Shown in pieces: positions 12,007-34,636 of a DNA stretch of 34,636 nt. The first letter of the stretch is position 1. The number at the start of each line of letters is the position of its first letter. The position numbers were made by a program, and so were the translations under genes. The DNA lies in the NCBI GenBank assembly GCA_029785195.1, contig JAFMAD010000004.1:34693-69328 (forward strand), given 5' to 3'. The notes beneath the pieces are model-generated. The model did no database searches. It was not told the DNA's origin and worked only from the letters and a program-made list of their open reading frames with translations. The DNA is from Nitrososphaerota archaeon. Lineage in GTDB: Archaea > Thermoproteota > Nitrososphaeria > Nitrososphaerales > Gagatemarchaeaceae.

Positions 12007-12918
12007 TCATACGTTGTCGTAAAGTGCCTTCACCCTTTCGATCATGGCGTCGTAATCAAAATCTCTCTTGAAGACAAGGCGAGCAAGCCCGCTCTTCTTG
12101 TTGGCGTTCAGCTTCATGGTGTCGAGTTGCCTCCGGCACTCACGGATGTGTTCCTTGGTCTTCAGGACGTGGCCCCTTACAGCGTGTTTCTCTGCCCGCT
12201 GGGCGAACAGGTTTCTGACCAGCTTCCAGTCGAGGCCGCGGTTGCTCTCGGTGATTCGAAGCGCGTCGTAGGCGTCGAAGTGGTTCCTCTTCCCGCGCCT
12301 CAAATCGCCTATTATGAAGAGCTTCGATGCCAGCTGCTCTTCCAGACCAACATGTTTGATCATGAGCGGTTCCAGCCCAAGCAACTTCAGGTTCATGATT
12401 GTGGCCATCTCGTTCTCTTCGGGTGCCTGGAATATCCTGCATCTCTTGCACAGCTCAATCTTCGGCCTCTCTTCAATCGTGTAGCCGATGCGACGGAGGA
12501 TATCCCTGTAGTTCAGTTCTAGAAAGAGGAGTCGGTCGTCGTTCTTCGCCAGGTCAACCCGGACGTCGCACCTTCTCAGACCGGCATACCTCGTCAGGTC
12601 CGTCCTGATTTCGTCGACGTCCCCGAAGCTGTAGCCAGCCACGGAATTGGGGTCGTAGTCGGCGTCAAAGGAGAACCTGTGGTCCAGCAGGGGCACGTGG
12701 TTCCTGACCGACATGCCGCCCTTGAGGACCAGCCTCTGGTCATAGTAGCCACTCTTCATCCGAGCGACGCTGTATATCATGTCTAGGGCACATATCTCGG
12801 AGTAGATCTTCTGAACAGACTCTGCGTCTGCGAAGTACTCTTTGTACTCGTCCTTCACCAGGTCCCTGGGGTCGGTGCCGATGACGGCATCGTCAGCTAT
12901 GTTGAAGAAGATCCCCAT
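12007..12918 (-). CDS. AbiEii-type nucleotidyltransferase toxin
   Basis: A 303-residue protein of the AbiEii/AbiGii (DUF1814) family. The nucleotidyltransferase core is RLVLKGGMSVRN (62-73) followed by HRFSFDADYD, with the two metal ligands in Asp-Ala-Asp (85-87). The C-terminal helices keep the family's LASKLFIIGD and RGKRNHFDAYDALRI stretches. AbiEii toxins modify tRNA or other targets with nucleotides. The ATG at 12918 is preferred; the frame is open to 13083 but the extra part is overlap with the upstream gene and reads as non-protein. It starts 5 nt after the antitoxin stop, so the two are one transcript. Confidence 0.83.
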   Translation of the reverse strand: MGIFFNIADDAVIGTDPRDLVKDEYKEYFADAESVQKIYSEICALDMIYSVARMKSGYYDQRLVLKGGMSVRNHVPLLDHRFSFDADYDPNSVAGYSFGDVDEIRTDLTRYAGLRRCDVRVDLAKNDDRLLFLELNYRDILRRIGYTIEERPKIELCKRCRIFQAPEENEMATIMNLKLLGLEPLMIKHVGLEEQLASKLFIIGDLRRGKRNHFDAYDALRITESNRGLDWKLVRNLFAQRAEKHAVRGHVLKTKEHIRECRRQLDTMKLNANKKSGLARLVFKRDFDYDAMIERVKALYDNV

Positions 12919-12923
12919 GGCAG

Positions 12924-13691
12924 CTACCTCGGCAGCCTCGCTTTCGCGTTGAACGGGAGCCTGTCGACCCAGACGACCCTGGCCGAGGGATTGCCGACCA
13001 AGACCTCGACGTTCTTCTGGTATTCGAGAAAATACCTTACCCCGTTGACGATAGATTCCCAGAAGCCAAGGTAGGGGGCCCACGTCGCAATGACCATGTC
13101 TGCCCTGCCGATTGGCCGTCCGACCTCGTGGTGGAGGGCGAAGTAGGCCCTCGGCCCGTCAATGTATGCCGGTACCGCCCGGAAGAGAACCGAGATATCA
13201 CCGGTAACGTTGACGTGCGTCTTGCAGGCGTCTAGATATCCAGACAACCATGTCTGCGCGCTCCCCGAAGACGATATTTCCATACCGTTCCTTTGCAGCA
13301 GACCTGTCTTGAGGAGTCTAGAAGCTGCATGATAGGTGCTGCTTCTGCTCAGAGCAAGCGCTCTTGATAGGTCTCCGAGACGCCTCGACCCAAGCACGGA
13401 AGCCAGGAATATCTTGAATGGTACTTCGTCGCAGAGGATCTCCCTTTCCTTCTGGCCGACCACCTGCGGCAACTCGGCCAGCCAGACGTTGGGTGCGTTC
13501 TCTACGAACTTTCCGTTCGAGTCTAGAATTCCTTCTTCCATTAGCAGCTTCTTTACCGCGTAGAACTGAGTGCTGTACCTCGCGTATCCCAGCTCTTGAA
13601 CGAGCCCCGTTGAGACCCTGTTACTGGTTCGGCCCCGAAGCTTGTAGAACACTCGCACCGCTTCTGCGTACCTGACTTGGTTGTAGAGCAT
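12924..13691 (-). CDS. AbiEi-like winged-helix antitoxin
   Basis: A 255-residue protein with two helix-turn-helix regions, one at about residues 20-60 and one at about 110-150 (DLSRALALSRSSTYHAASRL), and a C-terminal domain (VPAYIDGPRAYFALHHEVG). Position and layout match the AbiEi antitoxin that represses its own promoter and neutralises AbiEii. The start is set at the ATG 13691-13689 because a perfect TATA box (TTATATAG) ends 22 nt upstream. Starts further upstream would place the TATA box inside the gene. Antitoxin function is inferred from the adjacent AbiEii, not from a recognised family signature. Confidence 0.72.
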   Translation of the reverse strand: MLYNQVRYAEAVRVFYKLRGRTSNRVSTGLVQELGYARYSTQFYAVKKLLMEEGILDSNGKFVENAPNVWLAELPQVVGQKEREILCDEVPFKIFLASVLGSRRLGDLSRALALSRSSTYHAASRLLKTGLLQRNGMEISSSGSAQTWLSGYLDACKTHVNVTGDISVLFRAVPAYIDGPRAYFALHHEVGRPIGRADMVIATWAPYLGFWESIVNGVRYFLEYQKNVEVLVGNPSARVVWVDRLPFNAKARLPR

Positions 13692-13713
13692 CTGTCCAGT
13701 TGGAGCACAGAGA

Positions 13714-13721
13714 CTATATAA
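13714..13721 (-). promoter_or_regulatory. TATA box for the AbiE-like pair
   Basis: TTATATAG on the minus strand, 22 nt before the antitoxin ATG. It is the strongest TATA match in this part of the window and fixes the start of the gene. Confidence 0.65.
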
Positions 13722-13773
13722 GGACTCATCTGTCATAAGGAACACCGACGTGACGAACCCCATGGAGACGCAG

Positions 13774-14505
13774 TCAGGAAGATTCCGCGAAACTGCCGAT
13801 TTCGACCTGATCATGGTCGTGCATAATCCTGATTTGTCTCGTCCCGAAGTCCATCAGAGCATAGTGGCGTTCAGCAGGACTGCTGTCGATTCTAAGAATG
13901 GTCGTGTCCCGCAGCTTTGACAGGGTATACGGCCCGCTGAGGTGCCCGCTCACCGAAAGGGGTGGGTTCACCTGTGTCAGGACCTGGTCTAGAACCTCGA
14001 ACTCGTCGGAGGCGTGGTAGCGGCTACCGTATTCGGGAAGGTAGGGACTCGCATGAGTGGCCAAGACATCGACGCCGACCAGCCTCGCAGCGACGGAAAG
14101 GAAGTCTTCGGCAGACTGCCTGGGGACGCCGTCCTTGGCCTTCGTCTTTCCCTTCTTCGCCATTATGCCGTTGATGAAACCCACCTTCAGGCCTCCGATT
14201 GCCCTGACTTCGCCGTCTTCTGCCAGGACTCTGGTTCCGTCCTTGTTTCTCGCCGAATGGAGCACCTCCAGGTTGTCGTGGTTCCCGTAGATGGCATGAA
14301 CTGGGACCAGGTCGGTCAGGCTCTTCCAGTCGACAGGCCTCCACGCATGCCCGAGGTCGCCCAGTGCGATGAGGGATGCCGACTTGGCGCTTCTGACCAT
14401 CCGGAGCAACCAGTCGTGTGCCTCTCCTTCCCATACCCCGTGATGGTAAGTCTGTTCGTAATGGATGTCGCTGATGATCATTATCGGCTGACCGCTCTCG
14501 ACCAA
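13774..14505 (-). CDS. Calcineurin-like metallophosphoesterase
   Basis: A 243-residue protein with all the dimetal phosphoesterase motifs in order: SDIHYE (Asp and His, about residue 12), GDLGH (49-53), GNHDN (74-78), a later ATHASP histidine and SGHLSG. It therefore hydrolyses a phosphoester; the substrate is unknown. The start is TTG at 14505, with a GGAG about 4 nt before it; the ATG eight codons later, directly before the first metal motif, is possible. It is followed 82 nt later by the AbiE-like pair, which has its own promoter, so co-regulation is not implied. Confidence 0.85.
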   Translation of the reverse strand: MVESGQPIMIISDIHYEQTYHHGVWEGEAHDWLLRMVRSAKSASLIALGDLGHAWRPVDWKSLTDLVPVHAIYGNHDNLEVLHSARNKDGTRVLAEDGEVRAIGGLKVGFINGIMAKKGKTKAKDGVPRQSAEDFLSVAARLVGVDVLATHASPYLPEYGSRYHASDEFEVLDQVLTQVNPPLSVSGHLSGPYTLSKLRDTTILRIDSSPAERHYALMDFGTRQIRIMHDHDQVEIGSFAESS

Positions 14506-14646: not shown

Positions 14647-15897
14647 GTGGACCAGTCAGAAGAGTCGTCTGTCGCGACCCTCAGGGCGTCGGGGAAGCTC
14701 GCGCATCAGACCAAGGAGAACTACATCCTCAGGATAAGGGCGTACCTCAGGCGGGTGGGTATGTCCCCCGACCAATTCATCCAAACTGTCAGCCGAGACC
14801 CGAAGGCGTTCGAAGAGGATTTCGTCAAGTTCATCGCCGTGGTGAGCGGGACCTCAGCGTCCTCCACCACCGCATTCTGGCGGGACTCCCTCCGGAGGTT
14901 CCTCGAGATTAACAGGGTGAAGGGGGTCGACTGGGACTACGTCAACCAGTTCATCCCGAAGGTGAGGAAGTCGGGCCAGGACAGGGCGCCGACGCTGGAG
15001 GAGATTCGCAAGGTGGTGGCGGTCGCAGACCTCAGGACGAAGTGCCTCATACTCTTCCTGACTTCATCGGGCGCGAGGATCGGTTCGATAGAGTACCTCC
15101 GCTGGAGGGACATACAAGAGGTGGAATTCGAAGGATGGAAGCTCGCCAAGGTCACCATCTACAGGGGTGAACCGGAGGAGTATGACACCTTCGTGTCACC
15201 GGAGTGCTACGAGTATCTCCTGAAGTACAGGGAGGTCCGCGAGAAGGTGGGGGAGGTCACTTCGCCTTCGTCCCCGGTCTTCGTCAGGGAGGTGAACAAG
15301 AGGAGGTTCGACCAGAGCAAGGTGAGGCCGGTCGGCGTCAGGACCCTGAAGAACCAGATGGGGGAGCTCCTGAACCAGATGAAGATGCGGGAGAAGCTTT
15401 CCGATACTAAGAACTACCGGAGCTACGAGTGGAAACAGTGCCATTCTTTCAGGAAGTTCTTCAAGACAAGGATGGAAATGTCCGGGGTCAAGCCTATCAT
15501 TACGGAGATGCTGATGGGGCACACAATCGGCGTGTCTGGGAGCTACATGAAGCCCACTCAGGATGAGATGGTCAGCGAATATGTGAAGGCAATCCCCAAC
15601 CTGACGATCCTCGGCGCGTCGGGAGAGAGAGGAGACAGGAATGCCGAGTTCAAACGGGAGATCCTTCTCAAGGTGGGTGGTTACAGCAAGGAGGAAATGG
15701 ATAAGCTCAACCTTGCAGAAATGGAGGACACGACTATTCAGAAGATGGTACGGGAAAGGCTGCTTGGGGCGACGGCGAACAACGGGAACCACCAGAGGGC
15801 CATACCAGTCAGCGAGGTCGAGGCCTATCTGACGGAAGGGTGGGAGTACGTGGCGACGTTGCCTACCGGAAAGGTCGTGCTGAAGCTTCCCAACTAG
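14647..15897 (+). CDS. Archaeal tyrosine recombinase/integrase
   Basis: A 416-residue tyrosine recombinase. The N-terminal SAM-like core-binding helices (about 15-100) lead to the catalytic domain with Arg144 (SSGARIGSIEYL), the HxxR pair His266/Arg269 (CHSFRK), His292 (LMGHTIG) and the nucleophile Tyr300 (SGSYMKP). A C-terminal extension of about 100 residues ends in a small domain (EVEAYLTEGWEYVATLPTGK), which I recall from thaumarchaeal integrases. It cuts and joins DNA at an attachment site. The nearest tRNA (10142-10249) is 4.4 kb away and I found no copy of its 3' end nearby, so the element it belongs to cannot be delimited. Confidence 0.9.
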   Translation: MDQSEESSVATLRASGKLAHQTKENYILRIRAYLRRVGMSPDQFIQTVSRDPKAFEEDFVKFIAVVSGTSASSTTAFWRDSLRRFLEINRVKGVDWDYVNQFIPKVRKSGQDRAPTLEEIRKVVAVADLRTKCLILFLTSSGARIGSIEYLRWRDIQEVEFEGWKLAKVTIYRGEPEEYDTFVSPECYEYLLKYREVREKVGEVTSPSSPVFVREVNKRRFDQSKVRPVGVRTLKNQMGELLNQMKMREKLSDTKNYRSYEWKQCHSFRKFFKTRMEMSGVKPIITEMLMGHTIGVSGSYMKPTQDEMVSEYVKAIPNLTILGASGERGDRNAEFKREILLKVGGYSKEEMDKLNLAEMEDTTIQKMVRERLLGATANNGNHQRAIPVSEVEAYLTEGWEYVATLPTGKVVLKLPN

Positions 15898-16068: not shown

Positions 16069-17274
16069 CTAAACGTGTATCTTCGTATACACATCCAGAT
16101 TCGGAGCGCTGGCAGCATCGGTCCCACCCGCTCCCGCAGCCTCAGGCGTGCTGCGGGGGTACGAGTATTCATCCCTCATCTGCTCCCAGGAGGCGTCCGC
16201 ACTCACGGCAAACGGCGTCAGGCCGCAGAGGCGCAGGCCGCGGCAAAGGATTGCCAGACTGGCGAGCCTGTCCCTGTCGTAGTCCGCGCCGCATGTCCCG
16301 CACCTGCTCACAGCCCACGCCGGGTGCTCCAATTTGCCACCGCAGACGGGACACTCCGACGAGGTCCCACGCGGGCTCACGTATACGGTGCGGTTCGGCG
16401 ACTTGTACTCCACCATGGACTGGTAGAGCCTGTACGGCCATCTGTTCAGGTACGTCCTCAGCCTCTTGCTCTTCTTTGCCTCCCTGCTCGTCCTTCGTAT
16501 CCCCTTCAGGTCCTCGAACACGAACGACGCGCCAGGGTTCTCCCTCGCCGTCCTCGTGGAGAGCTTGTGGAGCGCGTCCTTTATGCGGTTCCTCTGCCTC
16601 CCCCTCGTCTCCTCCAGCTTCTTGGCACGCTTCTGGGGGTTCTCGACGTGCTTCTGCAAGGCCCTCCTCCTTCTCGAGAAGTCGTCCTGGACCTGCACCA
16701 TCTTCTTCAGCGATTCCGTCATCACGCTTTCTAGGGCAGGTCCGCTCCCGATCCCTGCCGAAGTCGAATCGACGCTCTTGAAGTTCAGGTCCTGGGCGAT
16801 GAGCTTGTCTCCAAGAGGCTTCTTCCCCTCTCCTACCACGAAGGTGAGGCAGACTTTCGAGTTCGTGATCAGGAGCTCGGACGCCCTCCCCCTCGAGTAC
16901 TCCTGGTAGTGCTTGTTCGAGGCGTTGACGGGGAGCCAGACGTACCTGTTCGGCTGCAGTGTCATCCTGATGCGCCCGTCCATTACCCTGAACAGCTCAC
17001 CGTCTACCCTCATCGCCAGCCTCCTCACTTCGGGTATCCTCAGCTCCCCGTGGTGGTTCCTTCTGTACGACCTGAGCATCGAAACAGCGGCCCTGCAGAC
17101 CGGGTTGATGTGGTGCCTGGCGTAGTCGTAGTGGGAGTAGAACCACTCCCTGACCTCCCTCCTCAGTGCGATCGGAGAAAGAATTCTGTGCCTCTCATCG
17201 GCGACGGCGCCCCTGTACGCCACCTGCAGCACGTACCTGACAGCGTCCCGCATTTCAGTTAGATACCGGAGCAC
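16069..17274 (-). CDS. tnpB: TnpB-like RNA-guided nuclease (OrfB)
   Basis: A 401-residue TnpB/OrfB of IS200/IS605 elements, the Cas12 ancestor family. The RuvC nuclease residues are visible: Asp162 (AQDLN), Glu254 (FVFEDLKGIR) and Asp in DYDRDRLASL near 333-335. The zinc ribbon between the last two has Cys308, Cys311, Cys325 and Cys328. The usual DRDxNAA reads DRDRLAS here, so the Asn is missing. The first usual start codon is GTG at 17274, but homology-like sequence (TVFWEQSQPEE) continues upstream in frame to a stop near 17413 with no ATG, GTG or TTG. The true start may be a CTG near 17343 or may be lost. Confidence 0.85.
   Translation of the reverse strand: MLRYLTEMRDAVRYVLQVAYRGAVADERHRILSPIALRREVREWFYSHYDYARHHINPVCRAAVSMLRSYRRNHHGELRIPEVRRLAMRVDGELFRVMDGRIRMTLQPNRYVWLPVNASNKHYQEYSRGRASELLITNSKVCLTFVVGEGKKPLGDKLIAQDLNFKSVDSTSAGIGSGPALESVMTESLKKMVQVQDDFSRRRRALQKHVENPQKRAKKLEETRGRQRNRIKDALHKLSTRTARENPGASFVFEDLKGIRRTSREAKKSKRLRTYLNRWPYRLYQSMVEYKSPNRTVYVSPRGTSSECPVCGGKLEHPAWAVSRCGTCGADYDRDRLASLAILCRGLRLCGLTPFAVSADASWEQMRDEYSYPRSTPEAAGAGGTDAASAPNLDVYTKIHV
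16071..16079 (+). repeat. 9-bp inverted repeat, tnpB 3' end copy
   Basis: AAACGTGTA, the exact reverse complement of 17404-17412. It contains the tnpB stop codon and lies 10 nt inside the element boundary. Confidence 0.5.
16075..16092 (-). repeat. Subterminal hairpin, tnpB 3' side
   Basis: GTGTAT and ATACAC form a perfect 6-bp stem around a CTTCGT loop. It lies in the last codons of tnpB, where the guide-RNA scaffold of TnpB systems usually sits. Confidence 0.5.
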
Positions 17275-24837: not shown

Positions 24838-25956
24838 GTGCAAGTCCTCCGCTCCCCAGCTTCGCTTGGGAAGATAAACGAAACCGAACGCCTTTCAAAG
24901 CGGTTACGGGTGGTGGATTTTTTCTGTGGTGCCGGGGGATTCTCACTCGGGTTCAAGCAGCTCGGTTTCGACATAGTCTATGCCGTCGACAATTGGAACC
25001 CAGCGGTCGAAACATACAGACTGAACAACCCGAACACGAAAGTGGAGAGGGCCGACGCCATAGTGCTCGCCCCTGAACGAATACCCGAGGCCGATGTCGT
25101 CATCGGAGGACCTCCTTGTACCGAATTCTCGGGCTCGAAGCTAGGTGGAGGAGGCAACATTCAGAAAGGCATGGCACTAGTCTACAGGTTCTTTCATTTC
25201 GTTCAAAGGCTCAGACCCAGGTGGTGGGTGATGGAGAACGTTCCGAGGCTTCTTCATTCTCTACCGCCAGCTCTCCCGCTGAAGAACCTTGGGATTTGCC
25301 AGGAGGGCCTTTTTGATATTCCCAAAGTCGCGGTTCTTAACGCTGCGGACTTCGGCGTCCCCCAGAAACGAGCGAGGGTCTTCCTGGGAAAATATCCTGA
25401 CCCTGTTCGCTCGCATTCCGAAAAAGGAGTGACGGAACTAGACGGGACGACATACGAGTCTTGGATTCCTATGCGACGAGCCCTTGATGCTTTCCCCAGT
25501 CCTTTGGGCAGGCCCGAACAAGGACGGCTTGTGCGAGATCCTCTCTATGACCTGGACGTTGACGAGGGGGAGCTCCGCGACCACTTCGGGCGTGAGTGCG
25601 TGTTGACGGAAGAAGATGCGATGAAGAACAGGCGTCAGAAGATGGAACACCCTTACTATGGGAAGATGAGGTTCCCAGACGATGTGGACAGACCAGCTAG
25701 GACTGTGATGGCCACCCAAATCAAGCCATCGCGAGAGATGATGGTGATTCAGGAGAGTGTCGACGGAAGCACGTTGTTCAGAAGGCCAACGGTCAGAGAA
25801 TGCGCCACGCTACAAGGATACCCAATCGATTACGCCTTCGTCGGGGGTTCTCTGTCTACTCGATACAGATTGGTTGGTAACTCTGTGCCTGTCGGACTTT
25901 CGCGGGCCATAGCTGCCGCGATAATGCAAGAAGCTTTGTCGAGTGTCGGCGTTTAA
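24838..25956 (+). CDS. DNA cytosine-C5 methyltransferase (upstream of vsr)
   Basis: A 372-residue C5-cytosine methyltransferase. It has motif I DFFCGAGGFSLGF (27-39), motif IV GGPPC with catalytic Cys94, motif VI MENVPR (132-137), motif VIII VPQKRARVF, motif IX RPTVRECATLQGYP and motif X GNSVPVGLS. The target-recognition region (about 190-310) contains HPYYGKMRFP and RPARTVMATQIKPSRE. The GTG start at 24838 is backed by a TATA-like box. The next gene in the same direction is vsr, so methylated cytosines and repair of their deamination are encoded together. Its recognition domain resembles that of the second methyltransferase at 26494-28314. Confidence 0.93.
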   Translation: MQVLRSPASLGKINETERLSKRLRVVDFFCGAGGFSLGFKQLGFDIVYAVDNWNPAVETYRLNNPNTKVERADAIVLAPERIPEADVVIGGPPCTEFSGSKLGGGGNIQKGMALVYRFFHFVQRLRPRWWVMENVPRLLHSLPPALPLKNLGICQEGLFDIPKVAVLNAADFGVPQKRARVFLGKYPDPVRSHSEKGVTELDGTTYESWIPMRRALDAFPSPLGRPEQGRLVRDPLYDLDVDEGELRDHFGRECVLTEEDAMKNRRQKMEHPYYGKMRFPDDVDRPARTVMATQIKPSREMMVIQESVDGSTLFRRPTVRECATLQGYPIDYAFVGGSLSTRYRLVGNSVPVGLSRAIAAAIMQEALSSVGV

Positions 25957-26048: not shown

Positions 26049-26483
26049 TTGAGACGCGCTGTGCTCGGCCCTTCGCCGCCGGCAAGCAACCTCGCGACCC
26101 ACAACGTGATGGTCTCGAACAGGGGACACAACACCGGGCTCGAACTGAAGTTGAGGCGAGCGCTCCGGGCGGCGGGGATTCGTGGATTCAGAGTGAACTA
26201 CTTGGTCGGCGGAACGCGAGTTGACTTGGCCTTCCCGTCATCGAAAGTCGCTGTCCTCGTTAACGGGTGCTTCTGGCATAGGTGCAGCATCTGTAAGTTG
26301 CCGTTGCCAAAATCCCACAGGAGTTTCTGGACCAGGAAGTTTCGATTGACGCGTCTTAGGGACGCCCGAGTCCGCAGCTCAATCAGAGAGAGCGGCTGGA
26401 GACTAGTCGAGATATGGGAACATCAGGCGAGAGACGATCTTGGAGGTTGCGTACGATTAGTGCGACTCGAGACCGGTCATTGA
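26049..26483 (+). CDS. vsr: Very short patch repair (Vsr) endonuclease
   Basis: A 144-residue Vsr-type mismatch nickase. Key parts are GLELKLRRALRAAGI, RVDLAFPSSKVAVLVNGCFW with catalytic Asp, then HRCSIC (His and the zinc Cys pair), PKSHRSFWTRKF, and the final SGWRLVEIWEHQ. It nicks T:G mismatches left by deamination of 5-methylcytosine. Two starts are possible: TTG at 26049, with TAAATT about 22 nt before it, or ATG at 26109, where family homology begins. It lies 92 nt after a C5 methyltransferase and ends 11 nt from the end of the convergent second methyltransferase. Confidence 0.88.
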   Translation: MRRAVLGPSPPASNLATHNVMVSNRGHNTGLELKLRRALRAAGIRGFRVNYLVGGTRVDLAFPSSKVAVLVNGCFWHRCSICKLPLPKSHRSFWTRKFRLTRLRDARVRSSIRESGWRLVEIWEHQARDDLGGCVRLVRLETGH

Positions 26484-26493
26484 ATCCGTGGTG

Positions 26494-28314
26494 TCAATCA
26501 ATTCTGGCCAGGGATTGCAGCGAGGATTCGTCTTCCGAACGAGAGGAATCATCGGGATGCTGGAGTGAATCCATGGCGGGATTTGCCACGTAGCGATTTC
26601 GCCAGTTTCTTCTGAGCCATTGTGTCCCTTCGTTTGCCAACTTCACCGCAACGCAAAGTGACAGGAGCGAGCACGCCGTGTATGCGTCGACATTCTTATT
26701 GTGCCACCTTCTTTCATCTATCTCATCTCCGTGGGCAATCCTCCGCCCCTTCAGCAGTCTCGCAAGTTCGGAAGCCTTCACACCTTCGCGACTCCGATCA
26801 GGTCCTCCCGTGACTTCCTCGGCGATTTCGGCGACCTTCTGCAATATCCAGTCTGGATTCTCGTCCAGGTCAGTCTTGCCAGCCCAGCTAGCTTGCAAAG
26901 ATGTCGCGTCTGGAATCACACCAATCAACTCCGAGATTGCGGTCTTGGCCGCCCTCTTGGCCAGTTGCTCCCCGATTGCGCCTTCAATCTTTTTGACAAT
27001 CTCGAGCGCCGTCTTCAGGTCTACGCGGAACGCCGCGTAGTCTTTCGCGTACCCCAGGAAGAGAACCGTCCGCCAGCCCACGAGGTGGTGTACTCCCCTT
27101 CCGAGAGGGTACGCAGGATGTCTCCCCCCATTGTCCAATCCCACTCTGCAATACGGCAAGGTCCCTTCGACCGAGAACTCGTAGGGTCGCCTGATTGGAT
27201 GGACGTAGGTCTTACGTTGCCTCGTGGGAGCCGAGTTAGTAGGCGACTCGCGGAGTGGGAAGTCCGGCGATTGCAGAGGCGGCATGCCTTCCGCTCTGGC
27301 GATGGCGAGCGCCAGGGACCGAGCGAGCGGTGGGGGGACAGAGTTGCCAATCAATCTTTGCTTGTCAGAGGGGCCGCTGGCCCAGAATTGGTACGTGATT
27401 GGGAAGCCTTGAAGGCTAGCACACTCTCTCAAAGTTGGCACCCTGTACTTCCGTCCCATCCTTTTGTCTAGGATGACGATGCTTGCCCTACTCGATTTCG
27501 TGGCAGTTGCTGCGATTGTTCGACTGGGTCGTTTCAAGGAATCAGGGAAGCTCATCTTCCCGTACCAAGGGTGATGCTCTTTCCACCTCCTGGCCATCTT
27601 GACCTGTTCACGGGAAAGTGTGGTGTCGTAGAAATGGTCAGTCAACCGACTGGTCGGAAGACTTATGGAATTGTAGAGCGGATCGACTACCTCACCAGGC
27701 AAATTCTGACCGTCCGCCAACGGGTTCGGCAGCCCGACGACGATGTTGCTCATTGGTATCGGGTCGTCTCCCATCCTGAGCGGCTCGGGGAACTTCCCCG
27801 CGAACATCCTCTGACGTGATTGGGGGACACCGTACTCCTCCGCGCGGAGGACCGGCGCCTTCTCGAAGAATTTCTCCAGTCGCTTCTTGGAGAATGCCTT
27901 CTGGTCTTCGTGCCGTTCGAGTATTGCTTTGAGGTTGGGCACATTCTCCATTATCCAGTAGCGAGGGTTCAACACTTCCACTGCATCGATGAACCTGGCC
28001 ACCAGGCTCAACCCGAGCTTCAAATCTCCGTTGCCGCCTTTGTTCGCCAACGAGAAGTGGGTGCACGGCGGTCCCCCGATGAGGATGTCGACCTTCTCCA
28101 GACTCTTAGGGTCGACTTCCTTCTTCTCGAGGATGTCGCCTTGAATGACGTTTGTTCCCGGGAAGTTCTTCCTAAACGTTTCGACGGCTGGTCTCCAGTT
28201 GTCCACCGCCCATTCAATCTTGAACCCTGCCTGCCGGAATCCTTCGGAGAATCCGCCGGCGCCACAGTAGAGGTCACCGACCGTAAGAGGTCCTTTTTTC
28301 GACGTTTCATTCAC
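26494..28314 (-). CDS. C5-cytosine methyltransferase with C-terminal extension (DrmMII-like)
   Basis: A 606-residue protein. Residues 1-345 are a complete C5 methyltransferase: DLYCGAGGFSEGF (14-26), GGPPC with Cys84, ENVPN (123-127), YGVPQSRQRMF, RVPTLRECASLQGFP and GNSVPPPLARS (323-333). Residues 350-606 are an extra domain with YVHPIRRPYEFSVEGTLPYC, a helical centre and HNKNVDAYTACSLLSLCVAV. I do not recognise it. The start is GTG at 28314, overlapping the helicase stop by 8 bp (GTGAATGA), so the two are co-translated. Position after a helicase/DUF1998/PLD protein matches DrmMII of class 2 DISARM, which methylates self DNA. Confidence 0.88.
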   Translation of the reverse strand: MNETSKKGPLTVGDLYCGAGGFSEGFRQAGFKIEWAVDNWRPAVETFRKNFPGTNVIQGDILEKKEVDPKSLEKVDILIGGPPCTHFSLANKGGNGDLKLGLSLVARFIDAVEVLNPRYWIMENVPNLKAILERHEDQKAFSKKRLEKFFEKAPVLRAEEYGVPQSRQRMFAGKFPEPLRMGDDPIPMSNIVVGLPNPLADGQNLPGEVVDPLYNSISLPTSRLTDHFYDTTLSREQVKMARRWKEHHPWYGKMSFPDSLKRPSRTIAATATKSSRASIVILDKRMGRKYRVPTLRECASLQGFPITYQFWASGPSDKQRLIGNSVPPPLARSLALAIARAEGMPPLQSPDFPLRESPTNSAPTRQRKTYVHPIRRPYEFSVEGTLPYCRVGLDNGGRHPAYPLGRGVHHLVGWRTVLFLGYAKDYAAFRVDLKTALEIVKKIEGAIGEQLAKRAAKTAISELIGVIPDATSLQASWAGKTDLDENPDWILQKVAEIAEEVTGGPDRSREGVKASELARLLKGRRIAHGDEIDERRWHNKNVDAYTACSLLSLCVAVKLANEGTQWLRRNWRNRYVANPAMDSLQHPDDSSRSEDESSLQSLARID

Positions 28315-31300
28315 CTAGGGTCACGGGCACTGTCCCGTGAAACTTGTCTCGAATGGATGTCAGAAGGTCTACGTATGCTTGTGTACCGTAGGGGGCGTAG
28401 CTGACTATCTCCTCGTTCGCTCCGATTCCTCCGAGGGTGAGGTTCGCTGATCCCTCTATGACGCCCAAAGGTGTGGCAATGGCCTTCGGATGAATCTTGC
28501 GCGCCGGGTCCGCGAGGTCCTTGCTCACGACAACGCATCCCGAAGACCGCAGCCTCTTCACGAAGCTGGCGACGCCGCTCTGCCTAAGCCTTCCCTTGTC
28601 TAGGCAGAAGGTTACCTCGAACCCAGACTTTGACAACCAGGCCAGCATGTCTGACAACCGCTCTGGTTGCTGTGCTGTAGATCTGGCCCCGCTCACCCTC
28701 GCGTATTCTACGATTGCATCTAGCATCCTGGGGGAGACTCCTACGTCCTGGAACTCGATGTCGCGGGCGTCGTAGAAGACCGCCTCCACCTTCCTCCTCT
28801 CCTTCGGCAGTAGTCCCAGCAGGTCTAGGTAGGCGGTCATCACTAGGTCGTGCCAGAGTAGCCTCCTGAAGCCCAGAGGTCCGATGCCATGAGCGGGTTG
28901 CTGTCCGACCCTCTCGTAGAGCGACATCCCGTCGATGTCGGAGGTCCTGACGATGAGTCCCGGAGCCGCCTCCGCGTCGGAGCCTACCTCGACCCCCACA
29001 GTGTATGGGAGCGAGACTGACCGTATCCTTCGGTCCGGACGGTCGATCACAACCTTGGACAGGTCGCCGAAGGGAATCTTCGCCCTCCCCCCTGCTAGGT
29101 CTGCCGGTAGAACCTGTAGGTACTCTTCACTTCTGCCCCTGCCATGCCTGAATAGTTCGTCGAGCACCATTTTGTCTAGGAGCGCTTCGCCCATCATCCC
29201 GCCTATCATGGACTCGCCATTCAGTATGCATTCCGGGCAGCCGTTCCAGCATATGGTCGTGGCCCGGATTAGGTCGTCGACCTCCAGCCCACTGGTCCTG
29301 CTGAGTTCCTGGACCTCCTGGCGTAGGATGGGTAGCCGCCACGCATCCTCTTTTCCTCGGATTCCGATTTTCTCCCACGCCGCTCCCGAAATGGAGAGCA
29401 CCTCCCGGGCGTGCTCTGCGACGTAGCCCAGCTCGGGGATGCCCAGCTCACTCTGCTTGGCTCTCCTCTGCTTCAGCATCTCGAGGGCAGACATGTCGCT
29501 GTGGTGCTGCGGGCATTGCAGGAGCTCCTCCTCGAGGAGTGTCAGGAAATCGTCGGAGGGGAGCAGCTTCGAATCTACGGTTGTTCCGTGGCGCTGCGCA
29601 TGGAGTATGTGCATGAATTTCCTGCCTACCTCGGAGCTCCCGCTCCCGTTGACGTCTTTGTCATAGAGGTAGATTCTGAACTGCCCCTTGTCCACGCCAT
29701 CGAGGTCAGGCGCGTACCCAATAACGGAGTCCCCGACGCCTGCCAGTCTTTCGAGGGCGTTCGTCGCTGCGAGACCGAACGAGTTCAGCAGCACGTCGTA
29801 AACCCATCGGTCCACGGACGAGGCGAAGCCGTCTACCCGTGGCTCCAGTGATTCTGCGGCCTCCCTCAAGCGCTCGATTCTCGCTTCGAGCTCCTCCATG
29901 CCCTTCTCCGTTCCTCGGTTCCCTGACGAGGGACCGAAAGATTCCTCGTCGCTCGATTCAATCGATGCGACGTCGCGATAGAAGGAACGGGCCAGCTGCT
30001 CAAGTTGTGGGGAGCCAGCCACTAGGGACTTGAAGGCCTTCGTCAGTGCTTCGGGTTTCCATCCTGCTCCCTCGCGTTCGACATACGTGGAGAGAATCGC
30101 CATGAGGTCACGGACGACGAAGGACCCGATCCCTGCGCTTCCTTCGCCTCCTACCGCTGACAGGTAGGCTGTAAGACACTTCAGCATGCTCGGCTTCCAG
30201 ATATCCCTCCCTTCGACGAGGCCTCGGACGACCACGTCGTGGGTTTCCTTCACCAGGTCGGGATTGAGGTCAATCGAGATTCCCTCGGTCTGGATGCTCT
30301 GCCCGAACGCAATCCTCCCCCCCTCGCCGGTCTCGAATACTAGTTCCATCCCGGAGACCTGGGTAGAGGTGTACGTCCGTGACGCGGAGTAAACGAACTC
30401 GGTTGCGTCGATTCGCTTGTGCCAGGATACCTTGTCGAACATGGCAGCGGCGAGCGGGTGTTTTATGTGAGGGAGGGCGCCCTCCTTGCTGGACTCCTCC
30501 ATGCCGTCCCTATCTAGGACGGCCAAGTACTCCGTGTCAAGCTCGTTCACGCGGATAGGCGAGCCATCGTCGCTCTGGACGTGGACCCATCTATTCAGGT
30601 ATGACTTTGGAATCTTTACCCTCTTGTAGTCATCTCCCTCGCCCTTCACCGTCTGCCCTTCGTCGCCGTCCAGCACTGTTCGGTTCTTCAGGTCCAGCGT
30701 CACGTACTTGTCCCTGGCGTCCATGAGTGCGAGCCGAGTTGGCCTTACCACCTCGAACTCAGGGAACCCAGGTGGGCCGCGCACATTTGGCTTGACGCGG
30801 ACGAACTGGCTCCCCTGCTCGTTGAGCTGGTCGGTGTCGATTCGGAGAATCCCACCCTCGGAGACCACCACCTGCCCAGCCCTGACCTTGACCGCCTTCT
30901 TTCCGAGGCGGTACGTCCAGGTGCCTGGAATCATGCTGAACAACGCTTCGTCGAGGGGAATCCTTTGCTCTTCCCGACCGAACCCGCTCAGTTCGACCTC
31001 CTCTTCGTATGGGTTGCTGAAGAGATTCCTTATCCTGACGAAGGCAGGATGCACCCGGCAGAGTCGGAATATGTCTAGGTTCTCCATCAGGAAGGACAGG
31101 TAGTGGGCCATCGGCTTTTCCTTCCTGACGAAGGCGTTGAATTGGTCATAGAAGTACAGGGGTATGGGGTTCACGGCCATTCCTGACAGTAGGTCGTTCA
31201 TGTCCTCGAGGCTTCGGACGACACGCCGTAGGTTGACCTTCTGGTTGGCATCCGTGAGGGAGGAGAGTTTTGCTTCCAGCTTACCGATGTGGCGTGCGAC

Positions 31301-34123
31301 TCCGTCCTTGGTCCAGCCCGCCCGTTGCATCGCGTCCAGATGCTGGAACTCGTCCGAGAGGCCCAGGTCAAGCGGATCTAGCCTCGACCTGGCATCCCGA
31401 TAGTCGCCGGTCAGTGCCTTCATTTGCTGCAGGGTGTTCGCCAGCTTTCGCGCTGGCACAACGCGCCGCCCGTGCTCGGAGAGGAGGTTGGGCACGACAT
31501 CAGCCAATCGGGAGACCCCTGGCTCAAGAATCCCCTTCACGTCAGTAAGCAGGAGCGATATCTCCGAGTCGACCTGAGCGATTGCCGAGTCGATGTATGC
31601 CTCCGAAGGACCGTATCCTCGTGAGACCTGCCGTAGATGCCCTTTCACCCCGGCAGCGTCCCTCCGCAGCGCCGCCAGTGACTGTTCTAACCTTCTGCTG
31701 AATTCGGAGTCGCCCTCGGCGATGCCCAGCGGGATTGCTTCGGGGAGCGCTCCCTTGATCGCTAACCAGTCCCAGACCGCGGTATACAACCCGCATCTCA
31801 GTATGTATTCGTTGGTATCCTTGAGCGGGATTGGATCTAGCTGCGCCAGACTGATTAGCTTCCTAGGCTGCCTGTAGTAGTGAAGGTCGATAGGCCGGCC
31901 GTCGATGAGCGTCACGTTCACCGCGTCTGACCCCTCCTCTCTCCCGATTCTGCCTGCCTTCTGTCTGTAAGAGGCCACGTTGCGGATTGCGTGGAACATC
32001 ACGCTCTCTGTCACCTTCTTCAGGTCAATTCCCACTTCAAGTGACGGCGAAGCAAGCACAACGTCCACCTGCATCTCCGGCTCTGACCAGGAGTCCAAAT
32101 CGTAGACTTCGGAGAGGGATCCCTTGAACACTACGTCTGCGAGGTCCTCACCGAACCCGCCTTCCCCACTGGTCTTGGCGGTGTGTAGCTTGGAGCGGAC
32201 GACGCTCTTCCACTCGTACTTCCTCCGTTTCTCCGAGATAGCCTCGACATCGTCGTCGTCCATGGGGAACCATTGACACGCACCCGCCCTGAGGTATGGG
32301 CAAAGGTCGAGAGTACCTATCTCCTGCGCCTTGCCGTCGAAGACCGAGCTGTTCCGTATCCAGTAGGCCTTGACTTCGTCCTTCGGTTTGATAGGGTCCC
32401 TGTAGACAATCTTCTGCAGCTCGGCAATGACCTCGCCGGGCTGGACACCGAGGCTGACCCTTTCTCCTGCCCGGCACCGCTCACAGAGCTTGTCCCCGAC
32501 ATGCTCCTGCAGTATCATGGGGTACTCTTCCGCGGAGCGGACATCTAGCCTCCTCTGGAGGGGGTTGTGGAACCGGAGCGCATAGGGGAGCTCGCGTTGG
32601 GTTGCCCCCCAGCCATCTGGAGAGGTGGCGAACCGGTCGGGACCGTCAGGGTGGTCACGGTTCCTGCTCCTCTCGGTCCTTTCGTTCTCGCGCAGGTCGG
32701 CGTTCCACCTTCCTAGCAGGTCGAGGTTGTCCGCGAAGCCTATGGTCTTCGGGTTCTGGTCCCCTCTCGCCCGTCGGCCCACGTTGACCCTTCTGTTGTG
32801 CACCAGGATGCTGGTCGCGTTGACCAACGCGCCCAGGGACGAGATTTTGCCGCTGGGTCGGATGAAGACATGGTGCGCCAGGCCTACCGTCTCCATCTCA
32901 TCCTCGTCCGGAGCGATGACATGTACCTTGGACGTGGGGAGCCCTAGGACCATACCCACGTGTGCGTGGGGCGAGGCGACCGTCGCCGACGATGCGGTCC
33001 AGAGCAGCGTCGACCCGGGTCTCATGAGGGCAGAGGCGGCCCTCAGCCTGTCCATGAGCCTAATCACATTCCCTCCCCCGAGACCCTCGACCAGGTGGAC
33101 CTCGTCGATGACCACCCTGCTCAGTCGAGACGCTACCTTGCTCGCGAAGAGCGGATGGTTCAGCCTGCGTTTGAGAGTCTCCAGTGTCGTGACAATCACC
33201 GCGGGAGGATTCCTTTGGTACACCCTCTCAATCCCTTCCTTCACGCTCTCCTTGTGGGGTCCGCTGGAGTACCCTTCGTAGTGCTCGAAATGGGCTTGGA
33301 AGTAGTCTATGTTGGGATTGTCTATCTCTCGTATCACGTCGGAGAACACGCCGTGCTGGTCGCGTGCCAAGGCTTTCCTCGGGTATAGGATGATTGCCGA
33401 CTGCCTCGCCGACATGTCGCCTTGGTAGAGCCTGGCGAGCGCCGAGACGAGGGTGGGGATTAGGAACCCGTGCGTCTTCCCGCTCCCGACGCCTGCCACG
33501 ATGACCTGGGCCGGCCTTTCCTGTCCGTCGCCGAACTCGGCTAGCAGCATCCGCGTCGCACTCTCGAGTTGGAACTTGCTGAACCTGACCTCGGAGGCTT
33601 CACGTGCGGGCGGCCCCTTCGCTATGACCCTGGCCACAGCGTTGACGACGTCGGGTATCGCGTCCTTGAGGCTGCCTCGCCATTCTTGCTTGCCAGATTT
33701 CTCGATTGCGGCCTGGAGGTCGGCGACGAACCGCGCGACGGGGATTTCCCTGCGTGGGACCTTCTTGTCCTCCAGGAGCCACCTGACTGCCTCTATCCCG
33801 GGCCTTCCCCTGGGCCAGTACTCCGGGGTGTGGCCCAGCAGCCTGACGGTCTCTCCTACACGTGTGATGAACCTTGGGGGCATCCCCGAAACCTGCACCC
33901 GCATCGCGTGCCTGTTAGCTACCATCCAGTCCATCACCTCCACGAATCGCGCCTGGTCCTCCCCCCCGCTGACGTCGTCAAGCGACCATAGGACGTCCCT
34001 GATGTCCTTCCGTGAGGATGCGGGACCCGACACCCGAGCGGACTCGAACTCGTATATCGCCCTCAGGGTACCCAGCCAACCGTGCCTTGACCTCGGGAGA
34101 GATATGCTGCCGGACTCGGACAT
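28307..34123 (-). CDS. Giant SF2 helicase-DUF1998-PLD fusion (DrmABC-like)
   Basis: A 1938-residue protein. The start at 34123 is preferred over 34150 because GAGGGG lies 3 nt upstream of the ATG. Residues 1-185 are helical and unknown. The SF2 helicase has Walker A GSGKT (213-217), DEVH (340-343) and QKAGRIGRE (721-729). An insert has CERC (about 547-550) and CPYLRAGAC (about 608-616), a possible metal site. Near 1550 the IYLYDKDVNGSG stretch, then CWNGCPEC (about 1625-1632), match the DUF1998/MZB helicase-associated module. The last 120 residues carry a phospholipase-D-like half-site: IHPKA (His1878) and EGSANLTLGG, without the usual Asp. This combines DrmA, DrmB and DrmC functions in one chain. 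Confidence 0.82.
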   Translation of the reverse strand: MSESGSISLPRSRHGWLGTLRAIYEFESARVSGPASSRKDIRDVLWSLDDVSGGEDQARFVEVMDWMVANRHAMRVQVSGMPPRFITRVGETVRLLGHTPEYWPRGRPGIEAVRWLLEDKKVPRREIPVARFVADLQAAIEKSGKQEWRGSLKDAIPDVVNAVARVIAKGPPAREASEVRFSKFQLESATRMLLAEFGDGQERPAQVIVAGVGSGKTHGFLIPTLVSALARLYQGDMSARQSAIILYPRKALARDQHGVFSDVIREIDNPNIDYFQAHFEHYEGYSSGPHKESVKEGIERVYQRNPPAVIVTTLETLKRRLNHPLFASKVASRLSRVVIDEVHLVEGLGGGNVIRLMDRLRAASALMRPGSTLLWTASSATVASPHAHVGMVLGLPTSKVHVIAPDEDEMETVGLAHHVFIRPSGKISSLGALVNATSILVHNRRVNVGRRARGDQNPKTIGFADNLDLLGRWNADLRENERTERSRNRDHPDGPDRFATSPDGWGATQRELPYALRFHNPLQRRLDVRSAEEYPMILQEHVGDKLCERCRAGERVSLGVQPGEVIAELQKIVYRDPIKPKDEVKAYWIRNSSVFDGKAQEIGTLDLCPYLRAGACQWFPMDDDDVEAISEKRRKYEWKSVVRSKLHTAKTSGEGGFGEDLADVVFKGSLSEVYDLDSWSEPEMQVDVVLASPSLEVGIDLKKVTESVMFHAIRNVASYRQKAGRIGREEGSDAVNVTLIDGRPIDLHYYRQPRKLISLAQLDPIPLKDTNEYILRCGLYTAVWDWLAIKGALPEAIPLGIAEGDSEFSRRLEQSLAALRRDAAGVKGHLRQVSRGYGPSEAYIDSAIAQVDSEISLLLTDVKGILEPGVSRLADVVPNLLSEHGRRVVPARKLANTLQQMKALTGDYRDARSRLDPLDLGLSDEFQHLDAMQRAGWTKDGVARHIGKLEAKLSSLTDANQKVNLRRVVRSLEDMNDLLSGMAVNPIPLYFYDQFNAFVRKEKPMAHYLSFLMENLDIFRLCRVHPAFVRIRNLFSNPYEEEVELSGFGREEQRIPLDEALFSMIPGTWTYRLGKKAVKVRAGQVVVSEGGILRIDTDQLNEQGSQFVRVKPNVRGPPGFPEFEVVRPTRLALMDARDKYVTLDLKNRTVLDGDEGQTVKGEGDDYKRVKIPKSYLNRWVHVQSDDGSPIRVNELDTEYLAVLDRDGMEESSKEGALPHIKHPLAAAMFDKVSWHKRIDATEFVYSASRTYTSTQVSGMELVFETGEGGRIAFGQSIQTEGISIDLNPDLVKETHDVVVRGLVEGRDIWKPSMLKCLTAYLSAVGGEGSAGIGSFVVRDLMAILSTYVEREGAGWKPEALTKAFKSLVAGSPQLEQLARSFYRDVASIESSDEESFGPSSGNRGTEKGMEELEARIERLREAAESLEPRVDGFASSVDRWVYDVLLNSFGLAATNALERLAGVGDSVIGYAPDLDGVDKGQFRIYLYDKDVNGSGSSEVGRKFMHILHAQRHGTTVDSKLLPSDDFLTLLEEELLQCPQHHSDMSALEMLKQRRAKQSELGIPELGYVAEHAREVLSISGAAWEKIGIRGKEDAWRLPILRQEVQELSRTSGLEVDDLIRATTICWNGCPECILNGESMIGGMMGEALLDKMVLDELFRHGRGRSEEYLQVLPADLAGGRAKIPFGDLSKVVIDRPDRRIRSVSLPYTVGVEVGSDAEAAPGLIVRTSDIDGMSLYERVGQQPAHGIGPLGFRRLLWHDLVMTAYLDLLGLLPKERRKVEAVFYDARDIEFQDVGVSPRMLDAIVEYARVSGARSTAQQPERLSDMLAWLSKSGFEVTFCLDKGRLRQSGVASFVKRLRSSGCVVVSKDLADPARKIHPKAIATPLGVIEGSANLTLGGIGANEEIVSYAPYGTQAYVDLLTSIRDKFHGTVPVTLGE

Positions 34124-34130
34124 TATCCCC

Positions 34131-34636
34131 TCACTTCGAGTTTTCGACATGCTTGATTAGTCTCTCCAGGATTGCCTTGGCGTGATCTGGCGTCACCTTC
34201 AGGGACCGGGCGTTCCAGTCCTCCTTCTTGTCCAGGGGGTTGTCGTAGTTCCATTCGTACACCTCGACGTCGTCGAAGTGCCACATCATATCCCCTTCTG
34301 GCACCTTCCTGTGAGCGTCGCGCAGCGACCCTGACACGGCTATCTTGTTTCTCTGCCAGTCCTTCGTAAACTGGAACCTGACCAACCCCCTCTGGAGCAG
34401 TATCGCGTGTCTCGGGCAGAGGTAGAGAGAGTTCGCGGGTTCGTACGCGTCGAACTTTCCTTGGAAAAGCCCCCCTCTGTTAGAGATGATACTCCTGATG
34501 TTCTCAGCCGTCTCGTAACCTTTGTCGTCCTTGGGGGTGACGTCCCCGCAGAGCTGGCACGCGTGGTACCAAGAGGCCAGCCTCTGGAGCGTCTCTCCGT
34601 AGCCATGCCTCTGGCGTTCCACAGCGTAGTCGTAGT
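34131..34636 (-). CDS. HNH/zinc-type protein, N-terminus beyond window edge
   Basis: The frame is open to the window end, so at least 168 C-terminal residues are visible and the start lies outside. It contains a CQLCG pair, then after 45 residues SLYLCPRHAILLQRGLV, an arrangement like the Cys-Cys/Cys-His core of HNH-like or related zinc modules found at the C-terminus of large defence ATPases. An HNH catalytic pair is not complete, so activity is uncertain. The stop at 34133-34131 is 7 nt from the preferred ATG of the giant helicase gene, so they form one operon with the methyltransferase. Confidence 0.65.
   Translation of the reverse strand, partial: YDYAVERQRHGYGETLQRLASWYHACQLCGDVTPKDDKGYETAENIRSIISNRGGLFQGKFDAYEPANSLYLCPRHAILLQRGLVRFQFTKDWQRNKIAVSGSLRDAHRKVPEGDMMWHFDDVEVYEWNYDNPLDKKEDWNARSLKVTPDHAKAILERLIKHVENSK

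Follow-up and report, generated by a model that had tools for sequence, protein, structure and literature searches.

The DUF1998 module is common to DISARM, Druantia and Dpd systems according to the accessible part of PMC9142583, which also reports that the DrmAB ATPase of DISARM goes up with unmethylated DNA and down with 5-methylcytosine (5mC), and that DISARM can do without DrmC, which was not co-purified with DrmAB. For MrfA, the accessible part of PMC12458937 describes a canopy that acts as a ratchet. Here we describe a gene from a Nitrososphaerota archaeon in which a helicase, a DUF1998-type module and a PLD nuclease domain are joined in one chain (hereafter, the fusion). It lies on a stretch of 34,636 nucleotides (positions 34,693 to 69,328 of contig JAFMAD010000004.1, assembly GCA_029785195.1), which we call the window. 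Judged by its sequence, the fusion is nearer to Dpd-like than to DISARM proteins and appears to be a new variant among YprA-family restriction systems, with a mechanism that we infer. We consider it probable that it belongs to an antivirus operon, rare in archaea, that resembles restriction-modification systems and is of the YprA helicase family. In this operon a DrmD-like SNF2 helicase and a sacsin-type GHKL ATPase accompany the Dpd-lineage helicase-canopy-nuclease and a C5 methyltransferase (MTase).

The fusion protein and its operon

The fusion gene is a single uninterrupted open reading frame (ORF) on the reverse strand (Table 1), encoding 1947 aa when translation starts at the first ATG and 1938 aa if it starts at M10. 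A first-pass annotation of the window had read a chain of this latter length, in an archaeon, with SF2 helicase motifs, a DUF1998-type module and a C-terminal PLD half-site, and with an 8 bp overlap between its gene and that of a C5 MTase. All of this was borne out: the motifs and residues are present and are kept in a homologue from a second archaeal genome bin, a Thermoplasmata genome described below. The helicase motifs are intact (Walker A, 219-226; DEVH, 349-352; SAT, 388-390; LEVGID, 704-709; QKAGRIGR, 730-737). The canopy module has a CxxGCPxC cluster. Its four cysteines (Table 1) are identical in the Thermoplasmata homologue, as are H1887, K1889, G1900, S1901 and N1903 of the PLD half-site, and comparison with that protein shows the four cysteines of the RecA2 half to be conserved as well. 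The HxK/GSxN pattern at the C-terminus is a signature of PLD nucleases.

Searches against PADLOC models placed DpdJ at the top (1.1e-43, in three stretches), followed by DruE (3.2e-17), DrmA (9.5e-11) and, over residues 1825-1920, DpdK (3.7e-7). NCBIfam likewise gave DpdJ (1.5e-38), then TIGR03817 (3.1e-21) and DISARM_DrmAS (0.0022). Pfam identified DEAD (PF00270, 1.4e-12), with Helicase_C and DUF1998/MZB (PF09369, E 0.038) under their cut-offs and no PLD family in the window protein at E 0.1, and the best PDB match was YprA (6znp, 3.9e-10). As no library alone firmly names the canopy and PLD modules, the case for both is cumulative, and these assignments are based on residue conservation, on comparison between profiles and on relatives that carry the modules as separate genes.

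The gene that overlaps the start of the fusion by 20 bp had been annotated in the first pass as an HNH/zinc partner. It is the tail of a sacsin-type ATPase, whose whole gene (L005:8824-13803) extends beyond the window and matches SACS (8e-12), P_loop_sacsin (4.5e-14) and TmtA (2.6e-24). The HNH candidate was dropped, as neither the tail piece nor the whole protein matched an HNH family. GHKL-type motifs are present, and CxxC and CPxH residues are conserved. Ahead of this gene, 2 bp away and outside the window, is a gene for a 933-aa DrmD-like SNF2 helicase, with NF038317 as its best family (6.9e-73), a PADLOC DrmD match (PDLC02623, 1.1e-66) and a weaker one to BrxHII. The operon therefore appears to have one type of component in common with DISARM class 1. 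All four genes are co-oriented. In PADLOC the operon MTase matches the DrmMII model (2.9e-34), with higher scores for the MTase_II and DruM models, and neither DrmE nor DrmMI is among the best matches of the four genes.

We infer the biochemical steps and the antivirus role of this operon from what was observed, namely the sequence, its motifs, the overlap and co-orientation of the genes, and the gene set of the second bin. The MTase would mark the cell's own DNA. Since its gene overlaps the fusion gene, the self mark is most likely to be methylated cytosine; no TGT-like match was obtained in either fusion-bearing genome (a weak negative). The two ATPases, SNF2 and GHKL, may inspect incoming DNA or remodel it and may assist in loading the large chain. 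Unwinding of unmarked DNA by the helicase would then go together with two actions of the OB-CON-DUF1998 canopy, which would serve as a ratchet for the strand (an analogy to MrfA) and check for the mark (an analogy to the 5mC sensing of DrmAB). As there is one half-site per chain, the tethered PLD domains would presumably dimerize to cut the DNA.

Relatives and ancestry of the fusion

A second fusion next to a C5 MTase, of the kind for which the first-pass annotation had proposed a survey, was found at one further locus. It was the single stretch returned by a degenerate DNA pattern scan of genome_contigs, which demands exact motif residues, may omit records near the window's genome and is not exhaustive. 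The stretch is from the Thermoplasmata metagenome-assembled genome AcS5-107 (G481). Its fusion (L018) has 1964 aa and is identical to the window fusion at 787 of 1987 columns (40%), end to end, so the window fusion is hardly an assembly error; this level of identity suggests that the two hosts are distantly related. The Thermoplasmata protein scores 26.7 bits to PLDc_2 (cut-off 27) and 20.6 bits to MZB (cut-off 24.2). Its locus encodes, on one strand, a Vsr protein, a C5 MTase (645 aa), a DrmD-like helicase (990 aa), a sacsin-like protein (1734 aa), the fusion, a D12 adenine MTase and a PDDEXK_11 protein, with the sacsin gene overlapping the fusion by 8 bp. Between the two loci, the DrmD-like proteins are 35% identical over 692 columns, the sacsin-like proteins 30% over 1190 columns and 33% over a further 205 at the C-terminus, and the Vsr proteins 41% over 118 columns. 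The operon MTase is 41% identical to the Thermoplasmata MTase over 514 columns, reaching into the C-terminal extension, and a second C5 MTase of the window is 43% identical over 350 columns, in the catalytic part only. The shared part of the extension points to the operon MTase as the counterpart. The D12 and PDDEXK_11 genes directly behind the fusion (L022:6308-7732) are perhaps a separate type II set. L021:950-2284 has the look of a tyrosine recombinase; Pfam found none there.

Two other archaeal genomes, G322 (L004) and G1145 (L042), have a helicase (848 and 838 aa, respectively), an OB-DUF1998 protein (727 and 729 aa) and a PLD protein (181 and 188 aa) encoded by three adjacent genes. These close a conserved seven-gene Dpd-like run, in which TGT-like, PCNA-like and AAA-like genes and one gene without assignment precede the trio (the TGT match in G1145 and the AAA matches in both are under cut-off). 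MZB scores are 27.8 bits in G322 and 20.6 in G1145 (under cut-off), and PLDc_2 scores are 25.5 (under cut-off) and 37.4 bits. The likeness to the fusion lies in the nearest helicase lineage, an OB-DUF1998 module with CxxGCPxC, a DpdK-like PLD and the same order; the differences lie in the three separate genes and in their TGT-like, PCNA-like and AAA-like partners. By eye, no MTase, DrmD-like or sacsin-like gene was noticed in either stretch. This archaeal Dpd-like operon is described here, and we found no name for it.

The fusion is rare and scattered. It was present in 1 of 101 genomes in a search of relatives, 1 of 398 in the phylum and 1 of 400 in the class, each time in the window's own genome, with G322 (phylum) and G1145 (class) matched through their separate helicases. 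Searches around the Thermoplasmata genome recovered AcS5-107 alone (1/389 and 1/106), and in the class of G322 none of 256 genomes had a fusion, the sole match being the separate helicase of G322 itself. The genome draws overlap, so these counts must not be summed, and the large whole-genome searches scored two candidates per genome, so weak relatives can be missed. Among plasmids, 37 records matched the fusion and 671 the DrmD-like helicase, none of either covering 80% of the query, while the sacsin-type protein matched 2 records and the G322 helicase 80. In the phages database one record matched. Most searches of viral_contigs were without any relative; one gave three matches, of which the one opened (L015) was by eye a canonical Dpd locus, and another, with the sacsin-type pair, gave one match. 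Neighbourhoods were opened for some of the plasmid and viral matches. A Methanomethylovorans plasmid (L028:9719-16203) encodes a DrmD-like helicase and, directly after it, a sacsin-type protein that bears the annotation HSP90 family chaperone, with no fusion among the 13 annotated features of the stretch, and this pair may therefore be a module of its own.

Profile-profile comparison using hhalign was applied to the three parts of the fusion. The N-terminal part is closest to the separate helicase (9.6e-46) and DpdJ (4.3e-43), followed by DrmA (1.5e-5); the middle to the separate gene (7.4e-11) and the DpdJ C-terminus (1.5e-8), followed by DrmB (0.66); and the PLD domain to DpdK (4e-9) and the separate PLD (1.9e-7), followed by DrmC (0.028). 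As controls, DpdJ matched DrmA at 3e-17, the DpdJ C-terminus and the separate gene matched DrmB at 0.97 and 4.3e-4, respectively, and DpdK and the separate PLD matched DrmC at 9.8e-4 and 2.3e-5. The sets are small (two sequences each for DrmC, the fusion and the separate genes) and only the ranking is informative. Phylogenetic analysis was based on 18 helicase cores (405 columns), with an earlier tree of 17 rows that lacked G1145. Both trees omit L006_a, which has no RecA1; L007, L010, L016 and L017 were never entered, and L006_b, L014 and L029 formed the outgroup under the provisional label ARM. In the 18-core tree the fusion pair had support of 100/100, DrmA formed a clade with 100/100 that excluded the fusion, and the branch holding DpdJ had 93/96. 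Grouping the fusion with DpdJ alone was rejected by the approximately unbiased (AU) test (p-AU 0.002), placing it outside the canonical DpdJ group. The fusion thus appears to form a lineage distinct from both DrmA and canonical DpdJ, with the archaeal line of separate genes as its closest relative, and a link to DrmA is disfavoured. A 2113-aa helicase from a Skermanella plasmid (L035:5481-11822), annotated as an AAA domain-containing protein, is on the DpdJ branch.

These comparisons bear on how the locus should be read. The first-pass annotation had proposed a DISARM-like fusion of DrmA, DrmB and DrmC. That three such functions are fused beside a C5 MTase held up; descent from the three Drm proteins did not, as DpdJ and DpdK match better, and the Dpd ancestry that it had named as another option came nearer the mark. 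A true DISARM variant, with the three proteins fused and DrmD and DrmMII kept, is in our judgement unlikely. Such a variant would account for the DrmD-like gene, for the DrmMII-model match of the MTase, for the three functions and for the weak profile match to DrmA, and the earlier tree did not reject the fusion and DrmA as one clade (p-AU 0.118). However, the DrmA score is far below that of DpdJ, no useful match to DrmB or DrmC was obtained (although DpdJ against DrmB likewise goes undetected by this method), and the motifs of five DrmA proteins compared (xTSRVGR/xSSRVGR/SYSRVGR and PTGGGKTEA) are unlike those of the fusion; in addition, the fully supported DrmA clade leaves the fusion out, the joint clade falls to p-AU 0.028 with 18 cores, and DrmE and DrmMI are absent from the best matches of the operon. 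We also regard as improbable that two modules merely lie side by side, the DrmD-like and sacsin-like pair on the one hand and the fusion with its C5 MTase on the other. The Methanomethylovorans pair fits such an arrangement, as do the SNF2 helicases found with GHKL ATPases in restriction-modification loci (accessible part of PMC2292703), but in the window and in the Thermoplasmata genome alike there is an overlap between the sacsin and fusion genes, and both loci keep all of the parts together.

A Dpd-like system that uses a 7-deazaguanine mark made elsewhere in the genome, with the C5 MTase as a bystander, would be in keeping with the nearest relatives, G322 and G1145, whose gene runs include a TGT-like member (in the latter just under cut-off). 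We think this very unlikely: the MTase gene overlaps the fusion gene, bacterial DpdA had no match in the window's genome (G000), G481 or G322, and the TGT-like protein of G322, used as a query, matched G322 itself but neither G000 nor G481 (a weak negative). Least credible of all is a MrfA/YprA-type DNA-repair helicase unlinked to defence. A chain of helicase and DUF1998-type module, the YprA structure as best PDB match and the TIGR03817 match would all suit such a helicase, but DpdJ scores higher, the PLD domain, the MTase, the island context and the partner set common to both loci speak for defence, and presence is sporadic (the window's own genome among the 101 relatives).

Several observations weigh against an antivirus operon with a Dpd-lineage effector. 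All the family matches that name it are under curated cut-offs: in NCBIfam, DpdJ reaches 132 bits (cut-off 800), DpdK (NF041068) 27.5 bits (cut-off 100) and, for the DrmD-like helicase, NF038317 reaches 246 bits (cut-off 610). Structure predictions of the two fusion halves, from three sequences each, were of low confidence, with mean pLDDT values of 37.8 and 32.0. The grouping of the fusion with G322 and G1145 (94/92; with G322 alone, 89/89 in the earlier tree) is short of the 95/80 mark, and the p-AU of the DrmA grouping depends on the tree. Because the DpdJ C-terminus is also without a DrmB match, the missing DrmB match of the fusion is no evidence against homology. The DpdA result is a weak negative, as the bacterial query had no positive control, G000 is 78% complete and queC, queD and queE were outside the search. 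Gene order differs, with the C5 MTase following the fusion in the window and preceding DrmD in G481, where the extra D12 and PDDEXK_11 pair implies some variation in MTase usage. Only two genomes were found here to carry the fusion, so that the case for co-conservation comes from two loci. Finally, the window's bin has 4.5% contamination and its archaeal rRNA is on a contig other than that of the operon.

With these points weighed, we still favour the antivirus operon with a Dpd-lineage effector. More tentatively, it could represent a distinct archaeal YprA-family immunity class, perhaps one among the uncharacterised Dpd-like classes of PMC12458937, in which a Dpd-lineage effector swapped a deazaguanine mark for C5 methylation, fused its three parts and gained the SNF2 and sacsin-type pair as a loader or sensor; we place this somewhat short of an even chance.

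Genomic setting

The contig (G000:C44) is 104,867 bp long and runs on beyond the window. Archaeal families are the best of the small subunit (SSU) and large subunit (LSU) rRNA clans in this bin; the archaeal SSU model alone also matches bacterial control genomes and by itself is no proof of an archaeal host. The SSU match (G000:C22:83272-85569; L008:1501-3798) spans 2298 bases for a model of 1478 positions, which makes an intron or insertion likely.

The surroundings of the operon look like a defence island. The second C5 MTase and the Vsr-type endonuclease of the window are probably a separate restriction-modification set; Vsr was considered as a firm operon member and dropped, as in the window it is on the opposite strand, behind the second C5 MTase. 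A TnpB-like protein is encoded at 16069-17274(-), with matches to a Cas12f1-like TNB domain (6.4e-9) and, weakly, to OrfB_IS605. The phage-integrase-like gene at 14647-15897(+) (PF00589, 6.3e-6; 26.5 bits, cut-off 27.1) may be an edge gene of a mobile island, and an AbiEii-type nucleotidyltransferase gene at 12007-13814(-) (5e-10) adjoins a gene for a protein with weak HTH matches, a possible toxin-antitoxin pair. Other neighbours are MazG-like and SLFN-g3 genes in the window and, beyond it, a GmrSD_N match and a sub-threshold EVE match.

Table 1. Features of the fusion gene and its surroundings, in window coordinates.
Feature	Position	Strand	Evidence and remarks
Fusion gene, coding for helicase, DUF1998-type canopy and PLD nuclease parts	28307..34150	-	ORF; DpdJ 1.1e-43; full-length homologue L018 at 40% identity
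RecA1 half, ~aa 190-420	32891..33583	-	Walker A, DEVH, SAT; PF00270 1.4e-12; boundaries approximate
RecA2 half, ~aa 465-800	31751..32758	-	LEVGID, QKAGRIGR; four-cysteine stretch C556, C559, C617, C625; Helicase_C under cut-off; boundaries approximate
OB-CON-DUF1998-type canopy module (predicted), ~aa 1028-1670	29141..31069	-	C1546, C1634, C1638, C1641; hhalign DpdJ C-terminus 1.5e-8, separate archaeal gene 7.4e-11; MZB E 0.038, under cut-off
C-terminal PLD half-site (predicted), aa 1825-1947	28310..28678	-	H1887, K1889, GSxN 1900-1903; DpdK 3.7e-7; hhalign to DpdK 8.8e-10 and 4e-9
C5 cytosine DNA MTase, 606 aa, C-terminal extension	26494..28314	-	PF00145 2.6e-49; 8 bp overlap with fusion gene
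Sacsin-type (GHKL) ATPase, C-terminal end	34131..34636	-	Whole protein 1659 aa, past window edge to 39110 counted on; 20 bp overlap with fusion
Vsr-type endonuclease	26049..26483	+	PF03852 5.3e-12; convergent with operon; possible accessory
Second C5 MTase, 372 aa, without extension	24838..25956	+	PF00145 7.9e-47

Comparison with described systems

No paper describing this operon was found by title and start of abstract among the literature matches listed, and the accessible parts of PMC12839542 and PMC3710099 do not mention it. The accessible part of PMC12458937 does not describe a PLD domain fused to a Dpd-like helicase, or a sacsin-type partner, and the words 'GHKL', 'Hsp90' and 'cytosine' have no occurrence in its main text. 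Three themes meet in this locus that the accessible parts of these sources discuss separately, namely effectors of the Dpd type, DrmD of the DISARM type along with C5 methylation, and the GHKL ATPases found in restriction loci. The nuclease that partners the helicase of DISARM is uncertain; a natural, covalent helicase-canopy-PLD fusion hints directly that in a related lineage PLD is the cutter carried by the motor, an idea that it makes testable with one protein. If the mark was indeed exchanged, a Dpd-like helicase would sense the absence of modification in general and not one particular base.

Among the described YprA-family systems, Druantia III DruE and the ARMADA YprA proteins are, as far as the accessible part of PMC12458937 shows, likewise single large chains with a fused C-terminal nuclease. 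The fusion matches DruE at 3.2e-17 compared with 1.1e-43 for DpdJ, and the partners of DruE differ. ARMADA, with its PglX-like MTase, BrxHII-like helicase and fused Vsr-type nuclease, is not matched, the corresponding parts here being a C5 MTase, a DrmD-like SNF2 helicase and a PLD-like fused domain. BRIGADE, a system of halophilic archaea, has a deazaguanine cluster and a pair of YprA helicases; G000 gives one match to the fusion (E 0.001) and no DpdA-like match (a weak negative). The MrfA/YprA repair helicases, which have no conserved defence partners or have MrfB, are also not matched, given the partner set common to two loci. The paraMORC/MORC restriction loci have a GHKL ATPase with an SNF2 helicase, mostly with cytosine methylases and Vsr nucleases nearby, and differ in that the accessible part of PMC2292703 describes no YprA-PLD fusion.

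The closest comparisons are with DISARM and Dpd. DISARM, with DrmD in class 1 and DrmE in class 2, resembles the operon in the helicase, DUF1998 and PLD functions, in a C5 MTase and in the DrmD-like helicase, whose family match is under cut-off. Unlike in DISARM, the fusion helicase is outside the DrmA clade, the canopy and PLD are not separate genes (there is no separate drmB) and a sacsin-type ATPase is added. The PLD domain is nearer to DpdK (4e-9) than to DrmC (0.028, two sequences), which in DISARM carries a 4-helix bundle at its N-terminus. Canonical Dpd provides the best family matches for both helicase and PLD domain of the fusion, DpdJ and DpdK, both under their cut-offs, and in Paenibacillus and Enterobacter plasmids dpdJ adjoins dpdK. 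Further traits of Dpd are an N-terminal wHTH and a C-terminal ALBA-like domain, and the DpdA transglycosylase with 7-deazaguanine genes. Here, the two are fused, the CxxGCPxC cysteines are kept, and in place of a DpdA-like match (a weak negative) the operon has a C5 MTase.

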